Positions 32,247 through 61,551 of a stretch of DNA of 64,000 nt are shown one piece after another. A model generated the notes under the pieces. That model had not been told where the DNA came from, did not search any database, and was given only the letters and a program-made list of their open reading frames with translations. Made by a program: the position numbers and the translations under genes. This DNA is from Polynucleobacter nymphae (GTDB taxonomy: Bacteria; Pseudomonadota; Gammaproteobacteria; Burkholderiales; Burkholderiaceae): assembly GCF_018882155.1 (NCBI RefSeq), contig NZ_JACVPA010000001.1, positions 1,488,001 through 1,552,000 of the forward strand, written 5' to 3'. How positions within the stretch are numbered: the first letter of the stretch is position 1; each line of letters begins with the position of its first letter.

Positions 32247-33716
32247 ATGAATCCTCAAATTGGCTTTCTTCTAAATAAAACGCTGGAATCTCTTAGGGTT
32301 TCCAATTTAGATTTAGCTGAGCTCTATTTAAAGCAGGCTATGAGGATAGAATCGAATAACCCCCATGTATATAGGCTGCTTGGTGTTCTGTCTACAAATA
32401 GAAAAAAATATCCAGAAGCTTTAGATTATTTCAATAAATCTCTTAAATTTCTTCCAAAAAATTCATTAGCTTTGTGTAATTTAGGGAATGTTTTTTATGA
32501 TTTAAAAAATTATGAAAAGGCATTAGATATTTATGACAAATCGATCAAGCTTGATCCAAACTTTGAAGAAGTTTGGTCAAATAGGGGAAACGTTTTATTT
32601 GAGATGAATCGTTATGAAGAGGCTTTAGTAAATTATGATAAAGCAATCAACTTAAAACCCAGCTATGCTGATGCATGGTCTAATAAAGGCAACACCATAC
32701 GCCAGCTTGGATTGCCTGAAGACTCTATCATTTACTATGATAGGGCTCTTAGTTTGAAACCAGATCACCACGAAGCAGCATGGAACAAAAGCTTAGCGCT
32801 GCTTTTGCTAGGGGATTATCAGCATGGATTACCACTATACGAGAGTAGGTGGAGATCAAAGAGCATTAGTGAGATTGCAGAAAAACGCTCTTTTGATAAG
32901 CCTACTTGGCTTGGAATGGAGTCCCTGAATGGCAAAACAATTTTGCTTTATGGGGAGCAGGGTTTAGGGGACTTTATCCAGTTTTGCCGCTACGCTAAAT
33001 TGGTTGCTGATTTAGGTGCTAAGGTGATTTTGGAGGTGCCCCAATCCCTTGCAATAGTATTGACTGACTTGGCAGGAGTTTCAGAGTTAGTAATTAAGGG
33101 TCAGGAGCTACCCCCTTTTGATTTTTGCTGCCCACTTCTCAGTCTGCCCCTGGCATTTAATACCAATGTTGCTAGCATTCCCGCAGAAAATGCTTATATT
33201 GCGAGTGATTCAAATAAGGTATCTGAATGGGGTTCTAAATTAGGGCCAAAAACGAAAAAAAGAGTGGGTTTAGTTTGGAGCAGTATCTCTAGCTTTCAGC
33301 ATGATTCAAAAAGAAGTTTGCTACTGTCAGATTTTGTAAAGGCGCTTCCTACCGAAGGGTATGAATATATCTGTTTACAAAAAGAAATCAAAGATTGCGA
33401 TAAAGAATTTTTTAGAGAATATAAAAATATTCAATATTATGGCGACCAACTCAATGATTTTAGTGATACTGCCGCTTTAATTGAATGCGTTGATTTAGTT
33501 ATCAGTAGTTGTACTAGCGTTCCTCACTTAAGTGCAGCGATGGGTAAAGAAACTTGGGTTATCGTACCTTATGTACCAGATTGGCGATGGCTGTTAGATA
33601 GGGAAGATAGTCCATGGTACCCATCAGTGAAGTTGTACAGACAGTCAGCTATAAATGATTGGAGTGGTGTGCTGGAGAGAGTGCGAAAAGATTTGGCTGG
33701 TACCCTCTTAGGATAG
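32247..33716 (+). CDS. TPR protein with GT9-like glycosyltransferase domain (copy 1)
   Basis: 489 residues. Residues about 1-175 are five TPR units (for example NPHVYRLLGVL, EEVWSNRGNVLFEMNRYEEA, ADAWSNKGNTIRQLG). Residues about 180-489 form a GT-B, heptosyltransferase (GT9)-like domain with LLYGEQGLGDFIQFCRYAK, KRVGLVWSSISSFQHDSKRS and SSCTSVPHLSAAMG. Residues 171-489 are identical to the end of the gene at 57493. No Shine-Dalgarno is visible; a TATAAT at 32233-32238 is so close to the ATG that the mRNA may be nearly leaderless. The likely task is sugar transfer to a protein or surface glycan. Base use is AT-rich. Donor and acceptor are unknown. Confidence 0.85.
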   Translation: MNPQIGFLLNKTLESLRVSNLDLAELYLKQAMRIESNNPHVYRLLGVLSTNRKKYPEALDYFNKSLKFLPKNSLALCNLGNVFYDLKNYEKALDIYDKSIKLDPNFEEVWSNRGNVLFEMNRYEEALVNYDKAINLKPSYADAWSNKGNTIRQLGLPEDSIIYYDRALSLKPDHHEAAWNKSLALLLLGDYQHGLPLYESRWRSKSISEIAEKRSFDKPTWLGMESLNGKTILLYGEQGLGDFIQFCRYAKLVADLGAKVILEVPQSLAIVLTDLAGVSELVIKGQELPPFDFCCPLLSLPLAFNTNVASIPAENAYIASDSNKVSEWGSKLGPKTKKRVGLVWSSISSFQHDSKRSLLLSDFVKALPTEGYEYICLQKEIKDCDKEFFREYKNIQYYGDQLNDFSDTAALIECVDLVISSCTSVPHLSAAMGKETWVIVPYVPDWRWLLDREDSPWYPSVKLYRQSAINDWSGVLERVRKDLAGTLLG

Positions 33717-33763
33717 TTAGCTTAATTGAGCTGATTGATCGGCCCACTAGACTGGAGGCGATA
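32757..33763. repeat. 1,007-bp exact long repeat, copy 1
   Basis: Reading both stretches in full, I find no difference between 32757-33763 and 58243-59249 (same orientation, offset 25,486). It covers the whole GT9-like domain, the stop codon and 47 bases beyond. The ends fall inside a TPR codon run on the left and in non-coding DNA on the right. No terminal inverted repeats or transposase are present. Confidence 0.95.
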
Positions 33764-33841: not shown

Positions 33842-36415
33842 ATGCGTGCTATGAGTCCTCAACTTCAAAAACTTCTTCAGCAAGTTATTCAAGCTTTTCA
33901 GCGTGGAAATTTTACTGAGGCTGACTCAATTCTGAATGAGCTTCTGCAAAATGATCTCAATAGTGCCGATACTATTTTTCAATTTGGCATTTCATGTTTA
34001 AAAACGAATAGATTAGCTGAAGCATTAACTATCTTTCAATGCTTACAGCCCTATAAAAGTGGTGATGTAAGAATTCCATATAACTTGGGCTTTATTCATT
34101 CTCTGCAAGGTATGCATCAACTAGCATTGGATGCTTATGATTTAGCTCTTAAAATTCAGCCCAATGATGCTGAGACGCTAATTAATAAAGGCTCAACTTA
34201 TATCGATATCAAAAATTATATTTTGGCGCTAGATGCCCTTGATAAGGCAATTCAAATAAAGCCTAATATCCCAGAAGCTTGGTCTAATAAGGGTATTGCA
34301 CTAAGTAATTTAAATTTATATGAGGAGTCCATTCACGCCTATAACGAGGCTATTAAACTTAGTCCAAGATATCACGAGGCATGGTCAAATAAAAGTGTGC
34401 CTCTTAATAAGTTAAAGCGATTCTTAGAGTCTTCAGAGACATGTGATAAAGCCTTAAGCCTGAAGCCTGACTATGCCGAGGCTTGGTTCAATAAAGGCAA
34501 TACTCTGCACGAACTAAAGCATTATGACGAGGCGCTTACTCATTATGATAAAGCCTTAAGCCTGAAGCCTGACTATGCCGAGGCTTGGTTCAATAAAGGC
34601 AATACTCTGCACGAACTAAAGCATTATGACCAGGCGCTTGATCACTACGATAAAGTGCTCAGCCTAAAGTCTGACTATCACGGCGTTTGGCACAATAAAG
34701 GGGAAGTGCTCAACTTTCTTAAAAAGCATGCTGAATCAGCCTATGCCGAGGTTTGGTTTAATAAAGGCGCTACCTTACAGGAGCTCAAGCGTTATGACGA
34801 GGCTATAACTCATTATGATAAAGCACTGAGCCTAAAGACAGACTATATTGAGGCTTTGTTTAATAGAGGTGCCGCATTAAATGAACTGAAGCGTTATGAC
34901 GAGGCGCTTGATCACTTCGATAAAGTACTTAGCCTAAAGCCTGACTATCACGATGCCTGGCACAATAAAGGGGAAGCACTCAATTTTCTTAAGAGGCATT
35001 CTGAATCAGCTAAATCTTACCTCAAAGCTCTAGAAATTAAGGGCGGAGACTCTTATTTATTGGGTAAAGCTCATCACCAAATGATGCTTGGATGTGATTG
35101 GACAAATTATAAAAAGAATATTAACGATATTTTTCATTTAATTAATGAAGGAAAAATGTCCGAGCCTTTTGGTTTTCAAGGAATTTCAAATTCAGAGGCG
35201 CTGACACAAAAATGTGCTGAAATTTATTCAAATGATAGGTTTCCTGCGCTGGGTAATACGTCTGAATTTTCACAATATAAACATCATAAAATACGTATCG
35301 GTTATTTGTGTGGCGAGTTTAGGAATCAAGCCACCTCAATCTTAATGACTCGTATTTGGGAGCTACATGACAAATCCAAATTTGAAATTTTTGCTTTTGA
35401 TAATGGCTGGGATGATGGCTCAGACTATCGCCAAAGAATTGTAGGCGCCTTTGGTAATATATTTGATATATCGAAATTATCTGATTTAGATGCAGTCAAA
35501 CTGGTTCAATCCAATGAGATTGATATCCTTATCAATTTGAACGGATTTTTTGGTCTTTCAAGACAGGAGATATTTTCTTATAAACCTGCCCCAATACAAG
35601 TGAACTATCTTGGCTTTCCTGGAACTATTGGCGCTAAATATATGGATTACATCATTGCCGATAAAGTAGTCATACCAGAAGAGTCAAAAAAATATTATGT
35701 TGAAAAGCTTGTGTATCTCCCCAATAGTTATCAAGCAAATGACGACCAAAGAAAAATCTCTGATAGGAAATTTACGAGGAGGCAATTAGGTCTTCCAGAA
35801 GATGCTTTTGTTTTTGCTTGCTTTAATAACAATTACAAAATAACCCCATCTACCTTCGATTCTTGGATGAGAATTATGTTTCACGTTCGAGGAAGTATTT
35901 TATGGCTTTTAGCCGACAATCCAATTGCTAAGGAGAATTTGATAAAGGAAGCTGCTGCTCGAGGGATAGAATCTAATAGGTTGATATTTGCTGAGCGCCT
36001 ATCAATTGAAGATCATTTGGCCCGCCATGATTTAGCAGACTTATTTCTGGATACTCTGCCGTATAACGCTCATACAACCTGCAGCGATGCTTTATGGGCT
36101 GGATTACCGGTGCTGACAATAGTGGGTGACACTTTCCCAGGAAGAGTTTCTGCTAGCCTTCTGACTTCCGTAGGATTAGATGAGCTAATTACCTCTGGCG
36201 AAGAACAATATGAAGCTTTGGCGATTGAGCTGGCCATGAACCCCAAGAAACTTGCAGATATTAAATTGAAGTTGGCGAATAATCGTTTGACTACTCCTCT
36301 ATTTAACGCATCTCTTTTTGCTAAGCATCTTGAGGCTGCTTATATCAAAATGTATGAGCGCTACCAAAATGATATGCACCCAGATCATATACTTGTTGGT
36401 TGTGAGGTAGGCTAA
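33842..36415 (+). CDS. TPR protein with GT41 (O-GlcNAc-transferase/SPINDLY-like) domain
   Basis: 857 residues. Residues about 1-395 are some eleven TPR units, several nearly identical at DNA level. Residues about 475-850 are the GT41 catalytic part: IRIGYLCGEFRNQATSIL, PAPIQVNYLGFPGTIGAKYM, then LPYNAHTTCSDALWAGLPV and GRVSASLLTSVGL. Eukaryotic OGT glycosylates Ser/Thr of cytosolic proteins; bacterial members act on proteins such as flagellin or pilin in some cases. It lies 125 bases after copy 1 of the TPR/GT9-like gene. ATG 33851 is an alternative start; neither has a ribosome site. One TPR boundary near 34740 is broken (SESA-type helix joined straight to YAEVWFNKG), a sign of in-frame recombination. 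Confidence 0.9.
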   Translation: MRAMSPQLQKLLQQVIQAFQRGNFTEADSILNELLQNDLNSADTIFQFGISCLKTNRLAEALTIFQCLQPYKSGDVRIPYNLGFIHSLQGMHQLALDAYDLALKIQPNDAETLINKGSTYIDIKNYILALDALDKAIQIKPNIPEAWSNKGIALSNLNLYEESIHAYNEAIKLSPRYHEAWSNKSVPLNKLKRFLESSETCDKALSLKPDYAEAWFNKGNTLHELKHYDEALTHYDKALSLKPDYAEAWFNKGNTLHELKHYDQALDHYDKVLSLKSDYHGVWHNKGEVLNFLKKHAESAYAEVWFNKGATLQELKRYDEAITHYDKALSLKTDYIEALFNRGAALNELKRYDEALDHFDKVLSLKPDYHDAWHNKGEALNFLKRHSESAKSYLKALEIKGGDSYLLGKAHHQMMLGCDWTNYKKNINDIFHLINEGKMSEPFGFQGISNSEALTQKCAEIYSNDRFPALGNTSEFSQYKHHKIRIGYLCGEFRNQATSILMTRIWELHDKSKFEIFAFDNGWDDGSDYRQRIVGAFGNIFDISKLSDLDAVKLVQSNEIDILINLNGFFGLSRQEIFSYKPAPIQVNYLGFPGTIGAKYMDYIIADKVVIPEESKKYYVEKLVYLPNSYQANDDQRKISDRKFTRRQLGLPEDAFVFACFNNNYKITPSTFDSWMRIMFHVRGSILWLLADNPIAKENLIKEAAARGIESNRLIFAERLSIEDHLARHDLADLFLDTLPYNAHTTCSDALWAGLPVLTIVGDTFPGRVSASLLTSVGLDELITSGEEQYEALAIELAMNPKKLADIKLKLANNRLTTPLFNASLFAKHLEAAYIKMYERYQNDMHPDHILVGCEVG
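34444..34639 (+). repeat. Tandem 102-bp TPR-unit repeats within the GT41 gene
   Basis: Positions 34444-34528 and 34546-34630 are identical over 85 bases, offset by 102 bases, exactly one 34-residue TPR. After one C/G difference the match runs eight bases more. More diverged copies follow up to about 35000. The array has clearly gained or lost units recently. Confidence 0.92.
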
Positions 36416-36478: not shown

Positions 36479-36958
36479 TTACTCTCCCAGCTTCCACTCT
36501 CCAGACTTACCACCACTCTTCTCTAAGAGTTTGACATCGCCTATAACCATGCCTCGGTCTACTGCTTTACACATATCGTAGATCGTGAGGAGGGCAACTT
36601 GGACTGCAGTGAGGGCTTCCATTTCGACGCCAGTGGGCCCCGTGGTTTCTGCCCTGACTTGACAGGCGATGCTGCTATCTTTTGAATTTGTTTGAAACTC
36701 AAGACTCACATGGCTTAAGGCTAGTGGATGGCAGAGTGGAATAAGATCGGCAGTTTTCTTTGATGCCTGTATGCCTGCGATTCTGGCAATACCTAGTACA
36801 TCCCCTTTTTTATGGGTACCTGCTTCGACCATTTTAAAGGTCTCGGAAAGCATGCTGATCTTGCCCGTTGCAATAGCAATTCTGTGCGTCGAGGCTTTAT
36901 CACCCACATTTACCATATGGGCTTGGCCACTTTCATCAAAATGAGTTAGTTTGTTCAT
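36479..36958 (-). CDS. moaC: Cyclic pyranopterin monophosphate synthase MoaC
   Basis: 159 residues, the normal length. Seen are the opening [15 protein letters not shown], the [17 protein letters not shown] active-site segment and [20 protein letters not shown] followed by KAVDRGM with the catalytic acid and base. MoaC with MoaA makes cyclic pyranopterin monophosphate, the first intermediate of molybdenum cofactor. No other moa gene is near. It is divergent from the M48 protease gene, with a 23-base gap. Confidence 0.97.
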
Positions 36959-39761: not shown

Positions 39762-40796
39762 TTATTTCAATCTATTGAGTGTAGCTAATACTTGTTCTGG
39801 CAGGATATCTTTTAGGCATCGTAAATGGCCTAAAGGGCACGCTCTTTTATGGCATGGGCTACAAGACATATTTAGCCAGATAATCTCAGCCCTGTCGGAT
39901 AAAGGGGGAGTATGGGCGGGATCGCTAGAGCCAAAGATAGCAACCTGAGGGATCTGGAGAGCTGCTGCAACATGCATCAACCCTGAATCATTACTTACTA
40001 CCGCCTTGCTCATTCCAATCAAAGCAATGGCCTCATCTAAGGAAGTATTGCCACACCAGTTATGAATATTGGCGGCATGCTTTGCATGGGCAGTAATTTC
40101 TTGGGCAAGAGCATGATCACTTTTGCTGCCTAAAAGAATAATTTGATGATTTGAGTTTTGCGTGATGAGCTTCTGTGCCAAAACTGCAAAGTGTTCGGTA
40201 GGCCATCTTTTAGAGGGCCCATACTCTGCACCTGGGCACATTACATAAATAGAGTCAGGATTGATATTGTTGTTTTGTAATTTGCGCTCTACCGATTGCT
40301 TTGCAGTATTGGAAACATGCAGTTTAGGGATTAGCTCAATAGATGAAAGAGGAGAGTCATCTTTTAGAAGTTGGCTTAATGCTAGATAGTGCCCCACCAT
40401 TTGTGGACGATTGATTTTGCTGGGGTTATCTAGGGCTAAATTAATCAGACCAAAACGCAACTCGCCACGGTAACCAATCCGAAAAGGAATATTAGCTAAC
40501 CAGGGAATGAGGGCAGATTTAAAACTATTCGGCAATACAAAACATGCTTGATAGTTTTTAGCTGCAATCTCTCTGGCCAATTGCTTGCGTAAGCCCCATT
40601 GCAGTTTTTTGTGCTCAAATTTCGCCTCAATGACTTCATGTACTTCGGAGCACGCACGATAGATAGGCGATACCCAATTACTGGCAAGGACATCTATTTT
40701 AGAATCTGGATAAAGTGCTTTGAGATTGGCTAGCAAAGGTTGCGTTGTTACGGCATCTCCGATCCAGTTTGGAGTAATGATCAGAATACTTTGCAT
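39762..40796 (-). CDS. waaF: Lipopolysaccharide heptosyltransferase II
   Basis: 344 residues of family GT9. It starts ILIITPNWIGDAVTTQPLLA, the WaaF opening, and has PGAEYGPSKRWPTEHFA and SNDSGLMHVAAAL, both diagnostic. WaaF adds the second heptose to the lipopolysaccharide inner core from an ADP-heptose donor at the inner membrane. The neighbours zinc-finger protein and ilvE are upstream on the same strand. Unlike the two TPR/GT9-like genes of the window, this is a normal single-domain GT9. Confidence 0.95.
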   Translation of the reverse strand: MQSILIITPNWIGDAVTTQPLLANLKALYPDSKIDVLASNWVSPIYRACSEVHEVIEAKFEHKKLQWGLRKQLAREIAAKNYQACFVLPNSFKSALIPWLANIPFRIGYRGELRFGLINLALDNPSKINRPQMVGHYLALSQLLKDDSPLSSIELIPKLHVSNTAKQSVERKLQNNNINPDSIYVMCPGAEYGPSKRWPTEHFAVLAQKLITQNSNHQIILLGSKSDHALAQEITAHAKHAANIHNWCGNTSLDEAIALIGMSKAVVSNDSGLMHVAAALQIPQVAIFGSSDPAHTPPLSDRAEIIWLNMSCSPCHKRACPLGHLRCLKDILPEQVLATLNRLK

Positions 40797-55708: not shown

Positions 55709-57376
<1,668 letters not shown>

Positions 57377-57445: not shown

Positions 57446-57492
57446 GTTTGAGACGTACAATTTATTAAACACGAATTACCCTTAAATTGAGC

Positions 57493-59202
57493 ATGTCAGA
57501 ATTCGAAGATTTTAATGGCAAATATTGTATGAATAAAAATTTCTCCTCACAAATGCTAGAGATTATTAATCATATTAAAAATAACAAACTAAAAGAAAAT
57601 TCTGATCTTATTCTGTTATCAGTAAAAGAAGATCCCAGAAATCTAAATAATCTTTTCGAGCTTGGGGTCGATTGCGCTGAAAGCGGTAAGGTGAATGATG
57701 CATTAATAATCTTTGATTTATTAAAGGCATGCAATATTAATGACGCAAGAATTCCCTACAATTTGGGTTTTTTGTATACATTAAAAAATGACTATCAAAG
57801 TGCATTAAGGAATTTTCATGATGCATATAAAATTTCCCCAAATGATTTAGATATACTGGTGAATTATGCTAGCACTCTCCATGAGCTCAAGCAATACGAT
57901 GATGCCATCCTCATCTTCGATAAAGCGCTAACGCTAGATCCAAATTGTGCTCAAGCTTTAACAAATAAAGGGGTTACCTTATTTGAACTGAAGCATTTTG
58001 ATGAAGCACTCTTTATTCATGATAAAGCGCTTAGTGTGGAGCCTCACAATTATGTGGCGTGGTCAAACAAAGGGAATGCGCTAAGTAAACTAAAGTATTT
58101 TGATGAAGCTATTATTTGCTTTGACAAAGCATTAATTTTAAAGCCTGATTACTATGATGCATGGATGCATAAAGGGTCAACCCTTTTTGAACTCCAGCGT
58201 CTGGATGAGGCTATTGCCAACTTCAATAATGCATTAAGAGCAAAACCAGATCACCACGAAGCAGCATGGAACAAAAGCTTAGCGCTGCTTTTGCTAGGGG
58301 ATTATCAGCATGGATTACCACTATACGAGAGTAGGTGGAGATCAAAGAGCATTAGTGAGATTGCAGAAAAACGCTCTTTTGATAAGCCTACTTGGCTTGG
58401 AATGGAGTCCCTGAATGGCAAAACAATTTTGCTTTATGGGGAGCAGGGTTTAGGGGACTTTATCCAGTTTTGCCGCTACGCTAAATTGGTTGCTGATTTA
58501 GGTGCTAAGGTGATTTTGGAGGTGCCCCAATCCCTTGCAATAGTATTGACTGACTTGGCAGGAGTTTCAGAGTTAGTAATTAAGGGTCAGGAGCTACCCC
58601 CTTTTGATTTTTGCTGCCCACTTCTCAGTCTGCCCCTGGCATTTAATACCAATGTTGCTAGCATTCCCGCAGAAAATGCTTATATTGCGAGTGATTCAAA
58701 TAAGGTATCTGAATGGGGTTCTAAATTAGGGCCAAAAACGAAAAAAAGAGTGGGTTTAGTTTGGAGCAGTATCTCTAGCTTTCAGCATGATTCAAAAAGA
58801 AGTTTGCTACTGTCAGATTTTGTAAAGGCGCTTCCTACCGAAGGGTATGAATATATCTGTTTACAAAAAGAAATCAAAGATTGCGATAAAGAATTTTTTA
58901 GAGAATATAAAAATATTCAATATTATGGCGACCAACTCAATGATTTTAGTGATACTGCCGCTTTAATTGAATGCGTTGATTTAGTTATCAGTAGTTGTAC
59001 TAGCGTTCCTCACTTAAGTGCAGCGATGGGTAAAGAAACTTGGGTTATCGTACCTTATGTACCAGATTGGCGATGGCTGTTAGATAGGGAAGATAGTCCA
59101 TGGTACCCATCAGTGAAGTTGTACAGACAGTCAGCTATAAATGATTGGAGTGGTGTGCTGGAGAGAGTGCGAAAAGATTTGGCTGGTACCCTCTTAGGAT
59201 AG
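57493..59202 (+). CDS. TPR protein with GT9-like glycosyltransferase domain (copy 2, chimeric)
   Basis: 569 residues from ATG 57493 (ATG 57529 and TTG 57487 are also in frame; none has a clear ribosome site). Residues 1-250 are about six TPR units. Residues 251-569 are the GT9-like domain, identical to copy 1 at 32247. The N-terminus differs from copy 1 and instead resembles the GT41 protein: both have RIPYNLGF in the third unit, after LIIFDLL or LTIFQCL. So this gene is a mosaic. It lies just after the groESL terminator and is AT-rich. Function as for copy 1: probable transfer of a sugar, acceptor perhaps chosen by the TPR array. Confidence 0.85.
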   Translation: MSEFEDFNGKYCMNKNFSSQMLEIINHIKNNKLKENSDLILLSVKEDPRNLNNLFELGVDCAESGKVNDALIIFDLLKACNINDARIPYNLGFLYTLKNDYQSALRNFHDAYKISPNDLDILVNYASTLHELKQYDDAILIFDKALTLDPNCAQALTNKGVTLFELKHFDEALFIHDKALSVEPHNYVAWSNKGNALSKLKYFDEAIICFDKALILKPDYYDAWMHKGSTLFELQRLDEAIANFNNALRAKPDHHEAAWNKSLALLLLGDYQHGLPLYESRWRSKSISEIAEKRSFDKPTWLGMESLNGKTILLYGEQGLGDFIQFCRYAKLVADLGAKVILEVPQSLAIVLTDLAGVSELVIKGQELPPFDFCCPLLSLPLAFNTNVASIPAENAYIASDSNKVSEWGSKLGPKTKKRVGLVWSSISSFQHDSKRSLLLSDFVKALPTEGYEYICLQKEIKDCDKEFFREYKNIQYYGDQLNDFSDTAALIECVDLVISSCTSVPHLSAAMGKETWVIVPYVPDWRWLLDREDSPWYPSVKLYRQSAINDWSGVLERVRKDLAGTLLG

Positions 59203-59249
59203 TTAGCTTAATTGAGCTGATTGATCGGCCCACTAGACTGGAGGCGATA
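58243..59249. repeat. 1,007-bp exact long repeat, copy 2
   Basis: Identical to 32757-33763 as far as I can read. The identity begins within a TPR codon run (AAACCAGATCACC) and stops 47 bases after the stop codon. Sequence outside differs completely at the right edge and is only distantly related at the left. Confidence 0.95.
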
Positions 59250-59270: not shown

Positions 59271-60005
59271 TTAAATGTCTTTTAGCGAAGACCAATCAAA
59301 CAAGGGCGATAGCCAAGCCGTCTCTGTGTGAGTGGCAAGTCCGGGTATAGGTGTCGCAATTCTTCTGCCACGCTGCTGAAGTGCCATAAAGGCTTGGTAG
59401 TCATGTGGATGATTTCCACCGCAGTACTCCAACCAAATTGGAAGATCTTCTAAAATTGTTTTAGCCTTAGCTGCAAAAGTAAGGGTTGTAGAGTTTGTAT
59501 ATTTCCAATGAGAGTTTGGGGTCAGGAAAATCCCTGTTTTTTCAACCCCTTCATCCGTAATTGCAGGATTGCCTCCATTAGCTGGCGGCATATATTTATC
59601 AGGATGATCATAAAGACTAATGTAATCAGCGCGGTTTAATCCTTCTAGCGTGACGATATTATTCATTTTCTGAGTATCAGTATCTAAGGCATTACTCTTA
59701 AATAAATAGTCATCTTCTTGAAAAACAACAATATCTTCCACCGATATTTGTTTTAAAAGTTGCAGTTGGAGTTTAAAACTTGCTCCATTAGAGCCAGTAT
59801 TTACCTCAAGTAAGTGCGCATTCTTAGGTAAATTTCCTATTAAAAACTTTTTAAGTTGGGCGTTAACATTGTCAGCAATTACGAAGACAGTATCAGAAGG
59901 GGTTGGGAAATTTTTGCAAAAATTTAGAAAGCAAAATTCTTTTGTAGCGATATCCAGCCGTTTCTTTTGATAGGAATTATCGCTAATTCTATAGAAAAAA
60001 TTCAT
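59271..60005 (-). CDS. Glycosyltransferase-like protein of unknown specificity
   Basis: 244 residues. An acidic FQEDDYLFK segment in the middle looks like the metal-binding DxD of GT-A enzymes, followed by HPDKYMPPANGGNP, a HWKYTNSTTLTFAAKA helix and a C-terminal HTETAWLSPLF. I do not recognise the family by name. It faces the TPR/GT9-like gene copy 2, 21 bases beyond the end of the repeat. The AT-rich base use resembles the TPR genes, which supports a shared glycan function. Confidence 0.6.
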   Translation of the reverse strand: MNFFYRISDNSYQKKRLDIATKEFCFLNFCKNFPTPSDTVFVIADNVNAQLKKFLIGNLPKNAHLLEVNTGSNGASFKLQLQLLKQISVEDIVVFQEDDYLFKSNALDTDTQKMNNIVTLEGLNRADYISLYDHPDKYMPPANGGNPAITDEGVEKTGIFLTPNSHWKYTNSTTLTFAAKAKTILEDLPIWLEYCGGNHPHDYQAFMALQQRGRRIATPIPGLATHTETAWLSPLFDWSSLKDI

Positions 60006-60183: not shown

Positions 60184-61551
60184 TCACGAAACAGCCTTGA
60201 CCATATCCTCAACAACCTTCTTCGCATCACCGAAGACCATCATAGTTTTATCCATGTAGAAGAGCTCGTTATCTAAGCCAGCGTAACCAGCAGCCATAGA
60301 GCGTTTATTGACGATAATGGTTTTGGCTTTGAAGGCCTCTAAGATTGGCATCCCAAAGATCGGGCTGCCTGGAGTGCGCGCAGCTGGGTTAACGACGTCG
60401 TTTGCACCAAGCACTAACACTACGTCAGCCTGACCAAAGTCACTATTGATATCTTCCATCTCAAACACTTGGTCATAGGGTACTTCAGCTTCAGCTAAGA
60501 GTACGTTCATATGTCCAGGCATGCGACCAGCTACGGGGTGAATTGCATACTTCACAGTAACGCCATGATGAGTCAATTTTTCAGTTAACTCTTTAAGAGC
60601 ATGCTGTGCGCGGGCAACTGCTAATCCATATCCAGGAACAATAATGACGGTGTCAGCATTTTCCATGAGGAATGCCGCATCTTCTGGCGATCCAGTTTTA
60701 TAGTTCTTAGGGGAGCCATCGTCAGCCCCGCCAGTAGCAGCCTCAGCACCGAAGCCGCCGAGCAATACGGCAACGATCGAGCGATTCATCGCCTTACACA
60801 TGATGTAAGACAGAATCGCACCTGAAGAACCCACGCAAGCGCCAGCAATAATCAAAACTGGGTTGTTCAAAGTGAAACCAATGCCTGCTGCAGCCCAACC
60901 AGAATAGCTGTTAAGCATAGATACTACAACCGGCATATCAGCGCCGCCGATAGGAATAATTAAGGTCACACCCAACACCAAGGCAATCGCACACATCGCC
61001 AAGAAAGCAGCGTGGCTATCACCCATGTAATAAGCAATGCCTGCACCAACCATAGAAATAGCTAGGATCAAGTTAAGCAAGTGTTGGCCAGAGAAGGTGA
61101 CTGGTTTACCGCTTACCTTGCCAGACAATTTGCCGAAAGCAATCACAGAAGCAGTAAAGGTAATCGCACCAATAAATGCGCCAATAAAGAGCTCAATTTT
61201 TTGGGCGCCAGTATGGGCTTGCGCGGGATTGAATACGGCAGCAATGGCAATCAAGACTGCTGACAAGCCTACGAATGAGTGCATCAATGCCACGAGCTCA
61301 GGCATCTTGGTCATTTGCACTTGTTTAGCTGCAATCATGCCGATAATTGCGCCGCCGACAACAGCACCAATGATGAGGCTAAAGACTGGCTTAAAGTCAG
61401 GAATAAAGAATGTCGTAATGACAGCCAGCAGCATACCAATCATGCCAAACATATTGCCTTGGCGAGAGGTAGTAGGCGAGGAGAGTCCACGCAATGCGAG
61501 GATGAACAGCACCGAGGAAATGAGATATGAAATTGCAGTTATGTTTGACAT
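60184..61551 (-). CDS. pntB: NAD(P) transhydrogenase subunit beta
   Basis: 455 residues. About nine membrane spans occupy the first 270 residues. A soluble NADP-binding domain follows (IIVPGYGLAVARAQHAL, HPVAGRMPGHMNVLLAEA, VLVLGANDVVNPA). It exchanges hydride between NADH and NADP+ while protons cross the inner membrane. It is the last gene of pntA-pntAB-pntB; the middle gene ends 33 bases before it. Confidence 0.97.
   Translation of the reverse strand: MSNITAISYLISSVLFILALRGLSSPTTSRQGNMFGMIGMLLAVITTFFIPDFKPVFSLIIGAVVGGAIIGMIAAKQVQMTKMPELVALMHSFVGLSAVLIAIAAVFNPAQAHTGAQKIELFIGAFIGAITFTASVIAFGKLSGKVSGKPVTFSGQHLLNLILAISMVGAGIAYYMGDSHAAFLAMCAIALVLGVTLIIPIGGADMPVVVSMLNSYSGWAAAGIGFTLNNPVLIIAGACVGSSGAILSYIMCKAMNRSIVAVLLGGFGAEAATGGADDGSPKNYKTGSPEDAAFLMENADTVIIVPGYGLAVARAQHALKELTEKLTHHGVTVKYAIHPVAGRMPGHMNVLLAEAEVPYDQVFEMEDINSDFGQADVVLVLGANDVVNPAARTPGSPIFGMPILEAFKAKTIIVNKRSMAAGYAGLDNELFYMDKTMMVFGDAKKVVEDMVKAVS

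Follow-up and report, generated by a model that had tools for sequence, protein, structure and literature searches.

Three genes for proteins that join tetratricopeptide repeats (TPRs) to a glycosyltransferase domain lie at two sites of the window, the 64,000-nucleotide stretch of the Polynucleobacter nymphae genome analysed here. The first site, the pilin slot, is bordered on the left by a type IV pilin gene (PF00114; 31578..32096, + strand), whose product is a candidate acceptor, and on the right by moaC (36479..36958, – strand). Between these borders lie gene A (32247–33716) and gene C (33842..36415, + strand), the latter encoding an 857-aa TPR-GT41 protein (PF13844, 308 bits against a cut-off of 25). 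Gene B (57487–59202, + strand, 571 aa) occupies the second site, between groL on the left (55724..57376, + strand) and pntB on the right (60184..61551, – strand). Its open reading frame (ORF) opens with TTG at 57487 and ATG at 57493. The first-pass annotation began the gene at 57493, which is an in-frame ATG within the ORF, but the ATG at 57529, where alignments of relatives begin, appears the likelier start. The same slot holds a minus-strand ORF of 244 aa (59271–60005) that matches no Pfam family, even at E values as high as 1.

Genes A and B share a 1007 bp block at 100% identity (32757–33763 = 58243–59249, both on the + strand), which contains the last TPR, the whole GT9-fold domain and the stop codon (ending at 33716 in A and 59202 in B). 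At its left edge gene A reads ALSL|KPDHHEAAWNKS and gene B ALRA|KPDHHEAAWNKS; on the right the block ends 47 bp 3′ of the stop. On the 5′ side of the block, the TPR modules of the two genes (32247..32756 in A, 57529..58242 in B, both + strand), which are of different N-terminal types, show weak TPR similarity only (68% over 112 bp). The C-terminal kinship of B to the GT9-like gene A noticed at first pass is thus stronger than claimed, and the junction placed at the end of 58242 was close, its exact position being one base later, at 58243. In a scan of the window for exact direct repeats of at least 60 bp (inverted repeats left out), the A/B block was the longest; the one other repeat found measures 85 bp and falls among the TPR units that gene C has in tandem. 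Gene C carries closely similar 102-bp TPR units plus a 270-bp period at 34444–35010, and its repeat number may vary from strain to strain. The GC content of the A/B block is 41%, compared with 33–34% upstream. This step was discounted as a sign of foreign origin, since GT9-type genes commonly show a slight step of this kind (third-position GC step, mean 0.025, sd 0.046), and A and B rank 198 and 176 among the 231 family genes described below.

To place the junction in the protein, gene B was modelled from 57529 with AlphaFold2 (model m86f0de606233, pLDDT 91.8), using an alignment of 38 rows (the two window genes plus 36 of the 101 other complete GT9-type genes). In the model, eight TPRs precede a catalytic domain of alpha/beta type. 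The A/B block starts at model residue 239, in a loop between helices 225–238 and 243–255, which would put the junction exactly between the seventh and the eighth TPR. The C-terminal domain (model residues 292–557) matched the GT9 (GT-B) entry 3tov_B (Z = 18.2, rmsd 3.1, 251 residues). The best whole-chain matches by Foldseek were SPINDLY (SPY) and OGT, with poor superposition (TM about 0.3). Both A and B scored 12.7 bits against PF01075, under the cut-off of 22, whereas the control, a GT9 protein of the window (39762–40796), scored 197 bits. PF13844 was absent among the 21 Pfam families matched by gene B at E ≤ 0.001. From the fold match to 3tov and the PF01075 score below cut-off, we call the catalytic domain of A and B GT9-fold: by its predicted structure it has that fold, and by the curated profile it is no GT9 member.

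The window genes belong to a family that is widespread in the genus. Among 151 Polynucleobacter genomes, at least 81 carry the GT9-type domain and at least 110 the GT41 domain. In 180 regions taken in, including 160 of 162 planned further regions, we found 249 genes with a catalytic match, of which 232 were complete and had 80 or more residues ahead of the domain; removal of one duplicate left 231 complete TPR-glycosyltransferase genes (103 GT9-type, 128 GT41). The GT9-type and GT41 profiles never matched the same gene of this set. Slots were assigned by at least one anchor gene in the region taken: 20 genes fell in the pilin-moaC slot, 21 in groL-pntB, 91 in tatC-cytochrome b, 8, all GT9-type, in a flagellar cluster that includes homologues of FliR and FlgE, 4 at an FlhA-linked site and 28 at four other sites, with 59 unplaced. 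A few assignments rest on one anchor with possible paralogues (terC alone in L243 and L273; a 392-aa anchor alone in L126, L174 and L201). Occupancy is patchy. Among the best 30 pilin loci from 61 genomes, the window's own included, moaC was directly next in 12 and a TPR-glycosyltransferase gene in 4; among the best 30 groL loci from 61 genomes, again with the window's own, a TPR-glycosyltransferase gene was next in 3 and pntB in 2. A slot may also contain nothing, or genes of another kind, such as those for a GT2 protein (L087) or an alpha/beta hydrolase (L326). The window's pilin itself had a match in 61/61 genomes, though in some of them the match was weak or the matching stretch was interrupted by a stop. 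A PHROGs search returned only families without assigned function, and a literature search, covering few subscription papers, found no paper on this TPR-glycosyltransferase family in Polynucleobacter.

Neither part of the protein is clearly tied to its slot more closely than the other. The best partner lay in the same slot for 119/171 N-terminal and 112/172 catalytic parts; within the pilin slot the N-terminal part was the more faithful (13/20 vs 9/20), and within the groL slot the catalytic part (18/21 vs 13/21). One N-terminal cluster has 7 of its 14 members in the pilin slot (hypergeometric p = 2.9e-5, a significance inflated by relatedness). TPR proteins with distantly similar N-termini and other C-terminal ends were also seen, namely a methyltransferase by Pfam (L124 2557–4986, on contig 11 of the window's genome), a methyltransferase by likeness (L141 7159–9612) and a sulfotransferase (L159 6143–8365); the N-termini of these three genes are only 29–42% identical to those of the family.

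We then compared the N-terminus of gene B, roughly its first 125 residues, within this family. As the first-pass annotation had stated, it is related to that of the GT41 gene C: the two share FELGVDCAES.../FQFGISCLKT... and the motif RIPYNLGF, with 29% identity over 112 aa (67 bits, BLASTP). On the N-terminal tree, B and C fall together in a set of 19 genes, themselves included, of which 16 are GT41 and 3 GT9-type (starred branch, SH-aLRT 98), and C is a distant member of it. Gene A, which was likewise said to start differently, has its N-terminus in another N-terminal cluster. Among the 231 genus genes, the first 125 residues of B were matched best by GT41 genes of other species (84, 82, 80 and 80 bits; 38–42% identity), followed by a GT9-type gene of genome G168 (79 bits) and, lower, by gene C. 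The likeness extends beyond the TPR consensus, because B's N-terminus scored up to 97 bits against N-terminal segments of the family, whereas the family's inner TPR segments gave no score above 38.9 bits. Gene C was rejected as the donor of B's N-terminus, with about 30% identity and other GT41 genes scoring higher. The mosaic nature of gene B is nevertheless real: its N-terminus belongs to a GT41-associated set and its C-terminus is the block of gene A. In the groL slot of another genome (G051, L081 7866–9744), a 311-aa GT9-type ORF and a separate upstream 256-aa TPR ORF lie beside a GT41 gene; the N-terminus of the TPR ORF falls in the B/C set, nearest C's kind, and the arrangement has the appearance of a gene with B's layout that has been broken.

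Next, we asked how often N-terminal and catalytic parts are paired differently across the genus. Of 212 genes (the 231 less 19 for which no N-terminal match reached 60 bits over 90 residues), 49 had a closest N-terminal partner of the other catalytic class. As the full set includes draft genomes assembled from metagenomes, single-contig genomes plus the window were also run separately, and here the closest partner was of the other class in 31/96. Class changes on the N-terminal tree numbered 45 (shuffled mean 76), 15 of them forced by starred branches; the single-contig subset gave 24 (shuffled 34), 6 of them forced. Since these are quick trees of about 125 columns and poorly resolved, the forced counts are those to trust. 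Trees of the two parts conflict strongly, which favours the module exchange suspected at first pass. In topology tests on the 163 genes of the largest N-terminal cluster (fast trees, LG+G4), the N-terminal data rejected the catalytic trees for both the 74 GT9-type genes (delta lnL 1222–1493, 117 columns) and the 89 GT41 genes (delta lnL 2061–2294, 125 columns). As a control, the two halves of the catalytic domain were set against each other and were also rejected, with delta lnL of 381 and 1011 over 155 columns and, in the second set, 686 and 408 over 221–222 columns. Per column, the conflict was larger at the module border than between catalytic halves in both classes. N-terminal and catalytic trees shared 20/71 and 23/86 splits, compared with 30/71 and 30/86 for the catalytic halves. 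Because the catalytic half-domains conflict as well, less strongly per column, recombination would appear not to be confined to the module border. The conflict of the first with the second catalytic half hints at recombination between the two GT-B lobes too.

Individual genomes contain the corresponding mosaics. In G081, a groL-slot gene and a pilin-slot gene share an exact 916 bp with the junction EAFL|NKSL; in G073, two GT41 genes of one slot share 1368 bp exactly; and in G128, an adjacent GT41 and GT9-type gene share 623 bp exactly, from the start codon to EEA|, corresponding to 207 identical N-terminal residues. In the exact mosaics of these three other genomes the junction lies inside a TPR unit; recent copies have their junctions in TPR units. 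Older mosaics were found in G031 (96.5% over 1880 bp) and G107 (93.4% over 1597 bp). The rest of the 61 rows were set aside on reading as flank overlaps of neighbours, near-full-length orthologues or a near-full-length tandem pair (L277). Catalytic parts have also been swapped in place. In the groL slot, a GT9-type gene (L211) and a GT41 gene (L271) have a common TPR part up to residue 181 (72% DNA identity), and their 3′ flanks agree at 85% over 205 bp. In the pilin slot, L086 and L257 have upstream DNA and the TPR part in common (63% over 1271 bp), and L075 and L214 share 865 bp at 76%; each pair differs in catalytic class. N-termini thus occur on both catalytic classes many times, with cross-class N-terminal identity of 72–100%. 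Judging from these comparisons, the TPR and catalytic parts are separable in evolution and have been re-paired repeatedly in the genus.

The pairing found in each window gene seems to be older than the exact block, because each has a colinear relative. Gene A is colinear along its whole length with genes of G094 and G135 (L211/L090; 62–64% identity before the junction, 66–68% after). Gene B is colinear with a groL-slot gene of G168 (L282; 49% before the junction, rising toward it, 69% after), and since B's layout is thus present at the same site in G168, its pairing of N-terminal and catalytic parts is probably old. The recent event, then, is that one of the two genes received the catalytic half of the other by copying. 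The identities compared (68% against 69%) favour neither direction of copying. The proposal that three genes trade both ends as modules is thus supported for the catalytic half of A and B, a recent copy, and is not supported for the N-termini of B and C, which are about 30% identical and belong to an older pairing. These colinear layouts, and the near-equal identities, could also be taken to mean that A and B are old paralogues lately homogenised by ordinary duplication and gene conversion, the GT41-like N-terminus of B reflecting ancient TPR descent with no continuing exchange of modules. For the recent A/B event alone this stands as the best account. However, for the family we consider it improbable: the cross-class N-terminal identities, the in-place catalytic swaps in the groL and pilin slots, the 15 forced class changes and the G128 pair need exchange between genes of different catalytic class. 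An artefact of assembly, in which a collapsed or mis-joined repeat produced the A/B identity, might be suspected in a 23-contig draft where 1007 bp exceeds short reads. Yet both copies lie in one 1.67-Mb contig with different flanks, each layout has its colinear relative, and a similar event involving the same two slots is present in the single-contig genome G081, making an artefact very hard to credit.

We consider it likely that gene B belongs to a large family of cytoplasmic TPR-glycosyltransferases that is patchily distributed, occupies a few variable chromosomal slots and re-pairs its ends via TPR homology. The similarity of TPR repeats to one another, present in every gene, could provide the homology for recombination, by gene conversion or crossover, which would swap catalytic halves under a kept TPR part or bring TPR parts onto another catalytic half. 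In the window's genome, the latest such event would have copied the catalytic half of A or B onto the other, leaving the strain with two enzymes of presumably one sugar chemistry and different acceptor readers. From the junctions of the four exact cases, we infer recombination through TPR homology as the simplest mechanism.

What the enzymes modify can be approached from FlmG of Caulobacter crescentus, a cytoplasmic flagellin O-glycosyltransferase of 596 aa with N-terminal TPRs (1–313) and a C-terminal GT-B domain (309–596); flagellin is bound by its TPR part on its own but not by its GT part on its own (PMC7591256). By analogy with FlmG and OGT, we take acceptor binding to be the role of the TPR array and sugar transfer that of the C-terminal GT-B domain. 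The type IV pilin beside gene A is our best guess for the leading candidate acceptor, by position only. More broadly, and weakly, the acceptors may be surface proteins such as this adjacent pilin, the gain being rapid change of surface glycosylation. A genus-wide system of combinatorial protein glycosylation, in which two catalytic classes (perhaps also the methyltransferase and sulfotransferase ends) in fixed slots would allow a one-step change of the sugar on a surface protein, above all type IV pilin, is a tentative extension that we think rather unlikely. The enzymes might instead act on acceptors other than pilin or flagella, such as outer-membrane or secreted proteins, or serve as scaffolds for capsule or O-antigen synthesis, the pilin slot being simply a permissive site. 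Slots also by groL, tatC-cytochrome b and other genes, the other cargo of some slots and the position of relatives in other genera near ORFs with signal-peptide-like starts (read by eye) give this alternative some weight. Against it, a flagellar gene cluster contains eight GT9-type TPR genes, and pilin forms the left border of one slot, which fits filament acceptors; we hold it to be a sizeable possibility, short of an even chance, and it is compatible with module exchange. The products of these ORFs of other genera near TPR-glycosyltransferase genes (L117 3312–4115, L118 759–1775) are possible acceptors themselves.

Whatever the acceptors, exchange among TPR-glycosyltransferases may give freshwater bacteria a way to vary their surface. 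It also supplies many natural chimaeras with known junctions, made of what seem to be the same two parts as FlmG's. Pairs that carry one TPR part with two catalytic classes, or one catalytic half with two TPR parts, are ready to hand and would allow testing which half sets the acceptor and which the sugar, and their junctions mark tolerated cut sites for engineering. How specificity is programmed in protein O-glycosylation is described as poorly understood in the abstract of the FlmG paper (PMC7591256).

By its published layout, FlmG resembles gene B, which encodes 557–571 aa with eight TPRs and a GT-B domain. In contrast to FlmG's setting, profile searches of the window's genome gave no match to flagellin (PF00669; the control search found it in 4/14 known genomes) or to NeuB (PF03102; found in 9/14), so acceptor and sugar presumably differ from those of FlmG. 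The accessible part of the FlmG paper makes no mention of natural re-pairing of its halves (PMC7591256). A later paper reportedly deals with FlmG reprogramming. With OGT and SPINDLY (GT41), gene B shares the order of parts, a TPR array and then GT-B, and gene C is GT41 by Pfam; the catalytic domain of B, in contrast, is not GT41 by sequence and is GT9-like by fold. With GT9 heptosyltransferases it shares that fold, but it falls below their profile cut-off and carries a TPR array. Re-pairing of recognition and effector parts by recombination is known from the target domains of type I restriction HsdS subunits and from polymorphic toxins; here a TPR array that presumably reads the acceptor and a domain that transfers the sugar would be the parts exchanged.
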